Below are positions 34,127-38,963 of a DNA stretch of 64,000 nt, piece by piece (position 1 is the first letter of the stretch; each line of letters starts with the position of its first letter). Both the position numbers and the translations under genes were made by a program. A model generated the notes under the pieces. It ran no database searches, was not told the origin of the DNA, and worked only from the letters and a program-made list of their open reading frames with translations. This DNA is from Roseobacter insulae (GTDB taxonomy: Bacteria; Pseudomonadota; Alphaproteobacteria; Rhodobacterales; Rhodobacteraceae), in the NCBI RefSeq assembly GCF_019375555.1, contig NZ_JAHXDN010000003.1, positions 62,001 to 126,000 of the forward strand. The letters run 5' to 3'.

Positions 34127-34414
34127 CTACTGCAGGCTTTCTTCCAGCCGCCTGCGGTCCGAGCTTCCCAGAACAGAACCGCGCAGGGCATTTGCACGGG
34201 CCTGCAGGCTCGCAACACGCGCTTCCAGTTGCGCCTCCGATTCCGGGATGTCCGTTTGCGTTGCCGCCACCTCGTCGATCAGCGGATCCAGGGGCACGAG
34301 ATCGGGGTAGGCGGCGACCTCGGCGCCGGGCGGGGTGGCGTTGTCGACTTCCGGAAACTGCGCGCATGCCGATGTAACAAGGGCCAGAACCACACAGGCT
34401 GAAATGCGCATCAC
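34127..34414 (-). CDS. Small lipoprotein
   Basis: This 95-residue protein has a type II signal (MRISACVVLALVTSACAQ; lipobox Cys at 17). The rest is an acidic linker and a C-terminal helix of about 45 residues rich in Glu, Ala and Arg (SEAQLEARVASLQARANALR) that could form a coiled coil. I do not recognise a named family. It lies 84 bp upstream of hom on the same strand and is divergent from the TetR gene. Confidence 0.78.
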   Translation of the reverse strand: MMRISACVVLALVTSACAQFPEVDNATPPGAEVAAYPDLVPLDPLIDEVAATQTDIPESEAQLEARVASLQARANALRGSVLGSSDRRRLEESLQ

Positions 34415-34507
34415 GCTAACTCCGAATAATTGGGTCTCCTTGTGCCCGATGGACCCATGTGGCGCAAGAAGGCTTGTTTTGAACGACTGTTCAGATAACG
34501 TGCTCCC

Positions 34508-35104
34508 ATGGCACGTACAGCAGGTTCACATTCCGATATCACCGGCCCCAAGGTGCGCGACGCGGCTCTGACGTTATTTGCGCGTCACGGGTTCGCCGCC
34601 GTCTCCATGCGCCAGATCGCGCGCGAGGTGGGGGTGCAGGTGGGCGCGCTCTATAACTACACGCCCGACAAGCAAACGCTGCTGTTCGACCTGATGCAAA
34701 GCCACATGGACGCCCTGCTGGAGGCTTTCTCAGACGATCCGGCGATGCCGCCCCGGGACAGGTTGCATAATTTCGTGCGGTTCCATATCCGCTTTCACCA
34801 TGACCGGCCGGATGCGGTTTTCATCGCGTATATGGAGTTGCGGAACCTGACACCGGAAAACTTCACAAACATCGAAGCGCTGCGAAAACGCTATGAAGAC
34901 AAGCTGGAGGCCATCCTGCGCGCGGGCGTGTCATCGGGCGTTTTCGACGTCGCGGATACAAAGATCGCGACGCTGGCCGTCATTGCGATGCTCACCGGTG
35001 TCAACACGTGGTTTCGGTCCGGCGGGCGGTTGTCCTTGCAGGATGTCGAGGATCAATACTGGCAGATGGTGCGCAAGGCCGTGTCTGCAGAGTCTCCGGC
35101 CTGA
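34508..35104 (+). CDS. TetR family transcriptional regulator
   Basis: This 198-residue protein has an N-terminal TetR helix-turn-helix: VRDAALTLFARHGFAAVSM, then RQIAREVGVQVGALYNYTPD. A helical ligand-binding domain follows. Its target is unknown. The neighbouring 122-bp gap contains GCGTGATGTAACTCATGC, an imperfect palindrome, and lies before the small membrane protein gene. No metabolic operon directly adjoins it except the convergent RdhA-like gene, so a regulatory tie is speculative. Confidence 0.9.
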   Translation: MARTAGSHSDITGPKVRDAALTLFARHGFAAVSMRQIAREVGVQVGALYNYTPDKQTLLFDLMQSHMDALLEAFSDDPAMPPRDRLHNFVRFHIRFHHDRPDAVFIAYMELRNLTPENFTNIEALRKRYEDKLEAILRAGVSSGVFDVADTKIATLAVIAMLTGVNTWFRSGGRLSLQDVEDQYWQMVRKAVSAESPA

Positions 35105-35226
35105 TTGCAAATATCATCATAATGCGTGATGTAACTCATGCTATATATTCGTTTTAAGAATTGATCGGTTATCCCTATATCGTGATGTGTCCCGATCTTC
35201 CGGACATTTCCTGAAAGGTGAAAGAG

Positions 35227-35451
35227 ATGATTTACGAAACGATCGTACATGAGAGAAGTGCCGCGCACCGGACCTTGGCCAACGTCGCTCAGGTTATCCT
35301 GCTGGTTGGTTTCGGCGTGCTGTTTGGGCTGATTCTGGCCGACGCGCCGGATGTGTCGCATGGTGCGGATGCGGTTAAGGCGCTTCAGGCGGGGCCGATT
35401 GAAGGTGAAGACTGGCACGGCAACGTGCGTCGTTCGGTGCCGGGACGCTGA
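35227..35451 (+). CDS. Small single-pass membrane protein
   Basis: This 74-residue protein has one transmembrane helix (VAQVILLVGFGVLFGLILA, about 22-40), a basic N-terminus and a polar C-terminal tail. AAAGGTGAAAGAG precedes ATG 35227. It ends four bases before the end of the convergent RdhA-like gene. I do not recognise the family. It is too short, with too few helices, to be a typical RdhB anchor. Confidence 0.65.
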   Translation: MIYETIVHERSAAHRTLANVAQVILLVGFGVLFGLILADAPDVSHGADAVKALQAGPIEGEDWHGNVRRSVPGR

Positions 35452-35454
35452 GCG

Positions 35455-36615
35455 CTAGTGCGCCCACCATGCGCTGGGCTTCTTGCGGCTGCCGCGCTGT
35501 CGATCCAGCCAGAGCGCGGCGCGCCGCAGGGGCGACAGCGCAAGGCGCAGCCAAAGCCGGTGACGCCATTGCGTGAAGTCGCGGTTGAAGGGACACACCC
35601 GCATGCAAATCGCGCAGTCAGAGGCCAGCTTGGACCAGAACCCAAAGCACTTTTCGGCATCAGAGGTCCATTTGCGCACGCCCTTGAGAGCAGAAACATT
35701 TGCGCCGCCGACCTCGGGGTCTCCGTAGGGCAGCGCCTTGACCGGGCAGGCATCCGCACATTTGGTGCAGATGTCGCAAAATGCCCGCACGCCGATCGGG
35801 CGCGGATCGTCATGGCTTAGCGGCAAAGATGTGAATATCTTGGAGAACCGCAGTCTTGGCCCGAATTCCGGCGTGATCACCATCTGGTTGCGGGCATATT
35901 CTCCCAACCCGGCTTTCAGGGCGTAGGGAATCACAAGCGCGGTGTCGTTCATCGATGGCACGGCTTCGTACCCCAGATTACGGATATAGGCGGCAGTCTG
36001 CATCACACAGGCGGCTTCCTGACTGTAGGCACGCCCTGTCGCCGCCCCGGCAAGCGCCGCCGGATAGGTATCGACGAGGTCTGCCGGCATCTCATGGCCC
36101 AGCACGATCACCGATGTAATGCCTTCCGGCAGGCTGTTGGGGGCGTCCGAAAGATCGCGGGTATCCACACGCGAGGCGTAATGCCATCGCGGGTCAAGCG
36201 CCGTGATGCCGCATAGGCTTGCTTTAAAGAAAGACGCCACTTTCTTGATTTCTTTTGACATTTCTTGGATGTCCGTCACGTCGACCTGCACCGGCGCCAC
36301 GGGTGTATCGGCGCTGATCGCGGCCTGAAATCCCTCGCGGCGGCCCTGATCGGCGAAACGATCCGTCATGATGTCCGAAATCAGCCAAGAGGCATTGCGC
36401 AGGGCGAAATCCCGCTGGCTGAAGCCATCGCCGCGCCGGGGCGTCGCCTCCATCCGGTAGGAGGCAAAAAACGCGTCAGTCTGCCGGGTGCGCACCGTGG
36501 GATCCCAGAAAGCGCGGGTAAAGATGTCATTGCGCTGCGCGAAGGGTTCGAAACCTTCGGTCACGTCGATCCCGGCCCGCGTGTCGGCGATATCAGCGCT
36601 TGATCCATCCTGCAT
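35455..36615 (-). CDS. Reductive dehalogenase-like (RdhA family) iron-sulfur protein, cytoplasmic
   Basis: This 386-residue protein aligns by eye with the C-terminal half of corrinoid-dependent reductive dehalogenases. Y197, N223 and R256 sit in AYSQEA, PSMNDTAL and TPEFGPRLRFSKIF. The spacings of 26 and 33 equal those I recall for the PceA residues Tyr246, Asn272 and Arg305. Two 4Fe-4S motifs follow: C280-x2-C-x2-C-x3-C290P, and C323 with C334-x2-C337-x3-C341P, flanked by RdhA-type GVRKW and KCFGFW. There is no Tat signal, no RdhB and no fused reductase domain. QueG is the nearest alternative, but its helical-repeat tail and context are absent. Whether it dehalogenates is unknown. Confidence 0.75.
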   Translation of the reverse strand: MQDGSSADIADTRAGIDVTEGFEPFAQRNDIFTRAFWDPTVRTRQTDAFFASYRMEATPRRGDGFSQRDFALRNASWLISDIMTDRFADQGRREGFQAAISADTPVAPVQVDVTDIQEMSKEIKKVASFFKASLCGITALDPRWHYASRVDTRDLSDAPNSLPEGITSVIVLGHEMPADLVDTYPAALAGAATGRAYSQEAACVMQTAAYIRNLGYEAVPSMNDTALVIPYALKAGLGEYARNQMVITPEFGPRLRFSKIFTSLPLSHDDPRPIGVRAFCDICTKCADACPVKALPYGDPEVGGANVSALKGVRKWTSDAEKCFGFWSKLASDCAICMRVCPFNRDFTQWRHRLWLRLALSPLRRAALWLDRQRGSRKKPSAWWAH

Positions 36616-36729
36616 GGGGCCAGCCTACGCAGTCGTTCTTTCCGGTCAATCGTAAAGGTCGCAAACAGACGCGACCGGGGGCATATCCCGCAGTCAACTC
36701 AGCGCCAACACAGAGCTCGGGAGCGACAT

Positions 36730-37674
36730 ATGAAAGTGGGATTCATCGGGTTGGGCAATGTCGGCGGCAAGCTGGCAGGATCGCTCATCCGTAACAAAAT
36801 CGACGTGCAGGTGCATGATTTAAATGCAGATTTCGTGTCAGCCAAGGTTGCGCAGGGCGCCAAGGACGGAAAAAGCCCGGCGCAAATGATGCAATCCTGC
36901 GACGCGGTGATCACCTGCTTGCCGACGCCAGACGCATCGGCCGCAGTGCTTGAGCAGATGTTGCCGCATGTCGCGCCCGGGAAGATCTGGATGGAGATGT
37001 CCACCACCGACGCGGGCGAAGTCAAACGTCTTGCGGAACTGGTCGCCGCGCAGGGCGGCGCCGCGGTCGATTGTCCGGTCTCGGGGGGGTGTCACCGCGC
37101 TGACACCGGAAACATCTCCATCTATGCGGGCTGTGATCGCGCCACGTTCGAGCGTGTTCTGCCCATACTCACCTGTATGGGACGGCGCATTCTGCATGTC
37201 GGAGAGGTTGGAAATTCCAGCATTCTCAAGGTCATGACCAATTATCTTGCCACGGCCAACCTGCTCACGCTCTGCGAGGCCCTGACGGTGATGAAGGCCG
37301 CGGGCATGGATTTGGGGATGACCTATGAAGCCATTGCCATGTCATCGGGAAATTCCTTCGTGCACGAGACGGAAAGCCAGTTGATCCTGTCGGGATCGCG
37401 GGACGTGAATTTCACCATGGATCTGGTGCAGAAAGACATCGGTTTGTTTCAGAAGCTGGCCGACACCTTTGATGTGCCGCTGGAAATCTCGCCCCTGATG
37501 ATCGAGATGATGTCAGATGGTCAACGCCGCTATGGCGCGCGCGCGCAATCCGACCGGATGATCGAGCGCCTGGAAGAGGCGACCGGTTTGAGCCTTCTTG
37601 CGCCGGGCTTTCCCCGGGAACTGGTGGATGATGAACCAGAGGAGCCGGGCTATGAGGTGGTGCCGAACCGTTAG
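36730..37674 (+). CDS. NAD(P)-dependent beta-hydroxyacid dehydrogenase family protein
   Basis: This 314-residue 3-hydroxyisobutyrate/6-phosphogluconate dehydrogenase relative has the N-terminal Rossmann motif [19 protein letters not shown] and the substrate motif [20 protein letters not shown]. The catalytic Lys lies in [15 protein letters not shown], and the dimerisation-helix region follows. The substrate is not apparent. It is divergent from the RdhA-like gene over 114 bp, with a 4-bp overlap at its end with the convergent serS. Confidence 0.88.
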
Positions 37675-38963
37675 GTCAGGGTGCCTTCCGACGACAGCAC
37701 TGTCTTGCCACCGAGGTAGGGCGCCAGAACCGCGGGCAGCGTGACCGAGCCGTCCGCCTGCTGCCCGTTTTCCAGAACCGCGATCAGACACCGGCCCACG
37801 GCGAGGCCCGAGCCGTTCAGCGTATGCACGAACCGAGGCTTGCCGCCATCCGCCGGTTTGAAACGGGCGTTCATGCGGCGGGCCTGAAAATCGCCCGTGG
37901 TGGATACGGAGGAGATTTCGCGGTAGGCGTTCTGACCGGGCAGCCACGCCTCGATGTCATAGGTCCGCCGGGCGCCGAATCCCATGTCACCGGTGCACAG
38001 GATCACCGTGCGATAGGGAACGCCCAACCGTTCAAGCAGGTCTTCGGCACATCGCAACATGCGTTTCTGTTCGGCATCGGAGGCATCGGGATGAGTGATG
38101 GATACCATCTCGACCTTCTCGAACTGGTGCTGTCGCAGCATGCCGGCGGTGTCGCGGCCCGCCGATCCAGCTTCGGAGCGGAAGCACAGGGTATGCGCGG
38201 TCATTCGGCGTGGCAGATCAGGTTCCTCCAGCACATCGCCGGCAACAGAATAGGTCAGGGTCACCTCTGACGTGGGGATCAGCCACCAGCCATTTGTCGT
38301 CTGGTAGCTGTCATCGCCGAATTTCGGCAGTTTGTCGGTGCCGTACATGGCCTCGTCCCGCACCAGCACGGGCGTTTGATGTTCGATCAGCCCGTTTTCA
38401 TCGACATGCGTGTCGATCATGAACTGCGCCAGCGCCCGGTGAATGCGGGCGACAGCACCTTTCAGCATGACGAACCGCGCGCCGGAGACCTTGGCCGCTG
38501 TCTCGAAATCCATCGAGGCAGCGACGCCGCCGATGTCGAAATGCTCCTTTGGGGCAAAGTCGAACTCCGGCAGATCGCCCCAGCGGGCAACCTCGACATT
38601 GTCGTTCTCATCGGCACCGTCCGGCACATCCCCTGCAGGCAGGTTCGCGATCCGGGCCAGCGTGTCGGTGAGCTGCGCATCAAGCTCCTTGGCCTCGGCC
38701 TGCATGGTGGCGACCTCGGCTTTCTTTTCGCCCACCAGCGCGCGCAGCCGCTCGAATTCCGCGTCATCCCCGGAAGCCTTTGCCGCGCCCACTTGCTTGG
38801 ACGCCCGGTTCTGTTCGGCCTGGGCGTTCTCAGCGGCGCTGATCTTGGCGCGGCGCGCTTCGTCCAGAGCCAGAATGTCAGACGACACGGGCGCATCGCC
38901 GCGCCGCGCCAGTGCGGCATCAAAGGCGTCGGGGGTGTCGCGGATCGCACGGATATCATGCAT
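37671..38963 (-). CDS. serS: Serine--tRNA ligase
   Basis: SerRS charges tRNA-Ser and tRNA-Sec. The 430 residues contain the N-terminal coiled-coil tRNA-binding arm (about 30-110). Class II motif 2 is present as [20 protein letters not shown] with QFEKVE, and motif 3 as [20 protein letters not shown] 38963 (MHDIRAIRD) matches the family start; an in-frame extension to 39188 overlaps the neighbouring protease gene on the same strand and is rejected. Confidence 0.97.

Follow-up and report, generated by a model that had tools for sequence, protein, structure and literature searches.

The rdhA gene and its product

The window analysed here is a stretch of 64,000 nucleotides from Roseobacter insulae (NCBI RefSeq assembly GCF_019375555.1, contig NZ_JAHXDN010000003.1, positions 62,001 to 126,000), which carries on its reverse strand a short gene, rdhA, for a protein of the reductive dehalogenase (RDase) type; its coordinates, with those of its key residues and neighbours, are collected in Table 1. 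The window protein matches the RdhA model TIGR02486 (E 2e-48; 165.8 bits, above the curated cut-off of 160.35) and, in phmmer comparisons, PceA (4uqu; E 6e-43), and its key residues are conserved, indicating more than a chance match to RdhA. The phmmer alignment is gapless, with residues 162-264 of the query on chain residues 211-313 at an offset of 49; Tyr197, Asn223 and Arg256 are thereby paired with residues 246, 272 and 305 of the chain, which are also Tyr, Asn and Arg and which we take to be the named catalytic residues of PceA. This confirms the spacings of 26 and 33 between these residues, which a first-pass annotation had likened to PceA from the sequence alone, and the two RdhA-style 4Fe-4S motifs that it described are indeed present, with the patterns C280-x2-C-x2-C-x3-C290P and C323-x10-C-x2-C-x3-C341P. 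All eleven key residues occur in 81 of the 82 rows of the family alignment; the remaining row (L019_4896_5963) has two of them and looks like an unrelated open reading frame (ORF).

Table 1. Features of the rdhA locus, in window coordinates (aa, amino acids)
Feature	Position	Strand	Remarks
Very probable short cytoplasmic RDase gene (rdhA), ortholog of Ros_A3X954	35455..36615	-	ATG ORF, 386 aa
Tyr197 codon, aligned with PceA Tyr246	36025..36027	-	Putative proton donor of the Y-K/R dyad by homology; position calculated from the ORF start
Asn223 codon, aligned with PceA Asn272	35947..35949	-	By homology
Arg256 codon, aligned with PceA Arg305	35848..35850	-	By homology; Lys in fused rows
First putative 4Fe-4S motif, CDICTKCADACP, residues 280-291	35743..35778	-	Letters identical in Ros_A3X954
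Second putative 4Fe-4S motif, CAICMRVCP, residues 334-342	35590..35616	-	Cys323 upstream; letters identical in Ros_A3X954
TetR gene	34508..35104	+	Annotated neighbour, convergent with rdhA
3-Hydroxyisobutyrate-dehydrogenase-like (HIBADH-like) gene	36730..37674	+	Annotated neighbour, divergent from rdhA
121-aa ORF	35053..35418	-	Downstream, overlapping TetR; non-hydrophobic (best 19-residue mean 0.1); no Pfam match
77-aa ORF	35218..35451	+	Convergent with rdhA; one very hydrophobic stretch (19-residue mean 2.6); no Pfam or NCBIfam match

Homology and the predicted fold suggest that the protein holds two 4Fe-4S clusters and a B12 pocket. Residues 9-386 of its structure model align to residues 269-616 of NpRdhA, and the vestigial duplicated core of the NpRdhA type is absent from the 386-aa protein. 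There is no RR pair within residues 1-60, the N-terminus is not hydrophobic, and the model for the twin-arginine translocation (Tat) signal gave no match at E up to 0.01, although it does match a Dehalococcoides control (L144). Likewise, no flavin or 2Fe-2S reductase domain appears among the Pfam matches of the protein, and no RdhB-like gene was found beside rdhA among the TetR, HIBADH-like, 121-aa and 77-aa frames. The absence of a Tat signal, an RdhB and a reductase domain, also claimed at first pass, thus holds in the sequence, neighbour and Pfam checks.

Relationship to characterised reductive dehalogenases

The nearest characterised enzyme is Ros_A3X954 of Roseobacter sp. MED193, described here from passages of PMC13101508 (2026). 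It is a Tat-less RDase that, expressed in E. coli, converts 2,6-dibromophenol to 2-bromophenol with a KM of 71 uM and a kcat of 1.1 per s (21.8 nmol per s per mg), Ti(III) citrate plus methyl viologen serving as the reductant; six organohalides were assayed and activity is given for one of them, 2,6-dibromophenol. Each protein carried roughly 8 Fe together with 5.6 sulfide and 0.11 Co, and oxygen abolishes its activity. In those passages the enzyme is termed catabolic, without an ortholog-group number, and no electron donor is named for it; no literature search was aimed at the donor. A relative from Pararhodobacter aggregans, A0A2T7UTL8, is 72.2% identical to Ros_A3X954 and is reported to reduce 2,4,6-triiodophenol (Ng and Silver 2024, via PMC13101508).

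The published layout of Ros_A3X954 (PF13486 at 174-269, CDICTKCADACP at 283-294, CAICMRVCP at 337-345; PMC13101508) agrees with that of the MED193 locus L046, a frame of 395 aa from its ATG with PF13486 at 174-269 and the motifs at 283 and 337. MED193 gives three matches to the window query; because the positions agree and the other two matches lie in a frame of 1083 aa and in one resembling QueG, L046 is taken to be the Ros_A3X954 gene. Over 374 residues aligned without a gap, the window protein has 74.3% identity to it. Both cluster motifs are letter-identical, and the two proteins agree at 140 of 161 residues in 185-345 and at 68 of 73 in 190-262, around the active site. The two proteins are of one length class (395 and 386 aa) and both lack Tat signal and reductase; they differ at their ends, and the pirin gene that follows rdhA in MED193 has no counterpart at the window locus.

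Phylogenetic analysis of 60 rows, from which six fetched rows were excluded (L102, L114, L123, L126, L130 and L131), placed the window protein and MED193 in a supported clade of 14 rows (100/99), nested in one of 18 rows (98/96). Separate clades were formed by QueG (three rows, 100/99) and by the fused type with BhbA (21 rows, 100/100). The placement within QueG that the first-pass annotation had named as counting against an RdhA is therefore not what we found, and its reading, a cytoplasmic RdhA-like protein of marine aerobes that could act on natural halogenated compounds, with another corrinoid reaction as the alternative, gains support, for the window protein by homology, from the debromination by the 74% identical ortholog (PMC13101508).

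We then compared single columns across the RDase types in 60 rows, among them 30 short, 21 fused, five respiratory-length and three QueG rows. The Tyr197 column holds Tyr in all 60, including the three of QueG, and position 256 is Arg in 30/30 short and 5/5 respiratory-length rows and Lys in 21/21 fused rows. Position 223 is Asn in 30/30 short rows, Asp in 21/21 fused rows and mixed in the five respiratory-length rows (D2, G1, N1, Q1); Asn at this position is thus not general among RDases. The published view of proton transfer in RDases is of a Tyr with a Lys or Arg as a dyad (PMC10463259, PMC7565698), and the window protein has both this dyad and the two 4Fe-4S motifs by which an RdhA is recognised.

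With PceA, the window protein shares the Tyr-Asn-Arg spacing, a single core and the best fold matches. Respiratory RdhA enzymes leave the cytoplasm by the Tat route and pair with a membrane protein; unlike them, the window protein has neither Tat signal nor partner. T7RdhA of Acidimicrobiaceae TMED77, whose host belongs to another phylum, is likened to the window protein by description only. It is a PceA-like protein from a marine metagenome that was expressed and binds corrinoid and two clusters (PMC10008544). The fused catabolic enzymes (BhbA, JtRdhA) and NpRdhA, which has no reductase, have the core fold, cysteines and Tyr in common with the window protein, and their substrates in print are halophenols (PMC10463259); they possess, however, a second, vestigial copy of the core and in most cases a reductase domain, whereas the window protein has neither, and the fused rows carry Lys and Asp for its Arg256 and Asn223. 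The R. insulae genome itself also encodes a 1069-aa RDase with a reductase-like C-terminus (L002:295-3501; G000:C1 near 1097000), which, as BhbA, gives a Fer2 match in Pfam. QueG resembles the window protein in its B12 core, two 4Fe-4S clusters and all eight cysteine columns, but it lies on a different branch, and the same genome holds a separate QueG elsewhere. In PMC10463259, RDases are divided by domain organisation into four subfamilies, the catabolic ones with a vestigial second core, and the short soluble form with its one core is not easily placed among them.

Proposed activity and alternatives

Together, these results make it very probable that the window gene encodes a single-core, soluble, cytoplasmic, B12-dependent RDase orthologous to the debrominase Ros_A3X954. 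The class is already published and characterised (PMC13101508), and the window gene adds a member to it. In the proposed mechanism, base-off cobalamin would be reduced to Co(I) via two [4Fe-4S] clusters and the cobalt would meet the halogen of an ortho-brominated, or iodinated, phenol; Tyr197, tuned by Arg256, would donate the proton, by analogy with PceA and NpRdhA, and the halide would depart leaving hydrogen on the ring. The electron donor is probably a general cellular ferredoxin or flavodoxin, because the protein has no reductase domain and no recognised partner gene lies beside rdhA. A bromophenol-type substrate is inferred by analogy with the ortholog, and the role in the cell is probably to detoxify marine bromophenols or to open them for catabolism.

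Several points weigh against this assignment. The debromination evidence belongs to Ros_A3X954, and the window protein is assigned by homology; 26% of its residues differ from the ortholog, so that its substrate preference could differ. Activity of Ros_A3X954 itself is reported on one of six organohalides, with an artificial reductant; the enzyme carried only 0.11 Co per protein, and its loss of activity in oxygen is odd for an aerobe (PMC13101508). No gene for phenol degradation or electron transfer was recognised among ten scanned proteins, namely rdhA and nine around it. Furthermore, when the tree is rooted on QueG, the fused rows group with those of respiratory length (95/92) and the short rows fall outside this group, so PceA-like residues do not imply a PceA-like branch; we are unsure of this placement and of all 30 short rows as one clade, with long branches in the tree, and the tree program warned that several of these meet, short and fused rows among them.

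The same fold and B12 chemistry could also serve a native substrate other than a simple bromophenol, either another halogenated natural product or a non-halogenated compound, with debromination as a side activity. This would fit the lack of recognised phenol-catabolic neighbours and the small panel of six compounds assayed with Ros_A3X954 (PMC13101508), and the coenzyme A (CoA) ligases near distant short paralogs (41-52% identity) hint at other substrates in the wider family. Nevertheless, the kcat and KM of Ros_A3X954, reached with 11% cobalt loading, the near identity to L046 around the active site (68/73) and the triiodophenol activity reported for A0A2T7UTL8 (via PMC13101508) make such a substrate quite unlikely. 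A respiratory, energy-conserving organohalide reductase, suggested by the solved structures nearest in sequence and in fold, which are respiratory RdhA enzymes, is highly improbable and was rejected, as the protein lacks a Tat signal that the model does detect in the Dehalococcoides control and there is no RdhB-like membrane partner on the rdhA strand. Finally, the protein is almost certainly not an epoxyqueuosine reductase (QueG) or a QueG-like tRNA enzyme, despite the shared cysteine columns, since it scores 49 bits with the QueG model TIGR00276 (cut-off 200) against 450 bits for the separate QueG of its own genome, lies outside QueG in the tree and is set apart by the structure comparison.

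If the window gene is a Ros_A3X954-type debrominase, a conserved Roseobacter-group gene is tied to a measured reaction, and the ability to debrominate bromophenols, both natural and man-made, may be common among these aerobes; the remaining interest lies in its wide spread in Roseobacter-group bacteria and in its electron donor. A more far-reaching proposal, which we regard as rather doubtful, is that the short form makes up a widespread minimal catabolic RDase branch of aerobic marine alphaproteobacteria, outside the four subfamilies of PMC10463259, that would be self-standing and draw its electrons either from a housekeeping ferredoxin or from the reductase part of the fused RdhA in the same cell, and whose distant paralogs by CoA ligases would have halogenated aryl- or acyl-CoA as substrates.

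Distribution and genomic neighbourhood

The short form was found in 10 of the 19 genomes of the genus sample, all 19 of which contain the long frame (1073-1106 aa). In the family sample, 54 of 394 genomes gave a match at E 1.5e-95 or better with at least 45% identity (hand count), five of these matches being partial and one of the five having an internal stop, and 178/394 gave any match at 1e-15. The class sample yielded 13/385 genomes at 1e-40 and the phylum sample 7/398 at 1e-100 (hand count). The named loci are the best 80 of 97 relatives (61-86% identity); by their titles, 70 belong to Rhodobacteraceae, Paracoccaceae or genera recognised as such and 10 to another or broader group (hand count), with Planktomarina in eight of the 80. 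The match to one short rdhA copy (L174; G893:C32:27788-28889) is split in two, and its longer piece contains a single internal TGA. L126:1534-2523, on the reverse strand, encodes an RdhA-like protein of a third type, about 330 aa long, which stays below the TIGR02486 cut-off (109.8 bits against 160); several more frames near this size occur among the family-sample matches. Viral contigs gave weak partial matches (28-35%) at nine loci.

Across 81 loci, the 80 named and the window, neighbours of rdhA include TetR (47), HIBADH-like (37) and pirin (36) genes, one of the 36 pirins (L046) having been checked in Pfam. Neither of the annotated window neighbours held up as a functional partner: within the genus, an ortholog of the HIBADH-like gene occurs in 9/10 genomes that have the short rdhA and in 8/9 that lack it (E up to 1e-60), and TetR in 9/10 and 6/9 (E up to 1e-40), with no clear link. 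In three genomes without the short rdhA (G011, G017 and G018) the TetR and HIBADH genes are adjacent, with 85 to 94 bases between them; a pirin gene separates the two in a further three (G005, G008 and G009). This marks rdhA as a single unit that can be removed from the stretch. No cobalamin riboswitch was matched in Rfam at E up to 1 in 34400-37800 and, with no partner recognised among the neighbours, the window rdhA therefore stands alone. Scans near rdhA found no sigma-70-like promoter site (0.7 expected by chance) and two weak terminator-like sites (1.7 expected). Eight of the 80 named loci, each with Roseobacter in its title, have a homolog of the 77-aa ORF (36-58%), as does L167.

We also sought an operon partner in more distant relatives, by clustering the neighbours at 19 loci (41-72% identity), and none was common to all. 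Shared neighbours occurred in two groups, L163-L165, where those of L164 are presumably housekeeping genes, and L157, L158 and L160 (cluster 52, with an AMP-binding enzyme in L157). In a scan of 20 proteins from eight loci, with one gene scanned in L166, AMP-binding CoA ligases were found near distant short relatives (41-52%) at four of the eight (L156, L157, L161 and L162) and at L166; there is none at the window gene, and we take these ligases as a hint only. L162 also encodes an acyl-CoA dehydrogenase, and a second protein of RdhA/QueG-like type there scores below both cut-offs.
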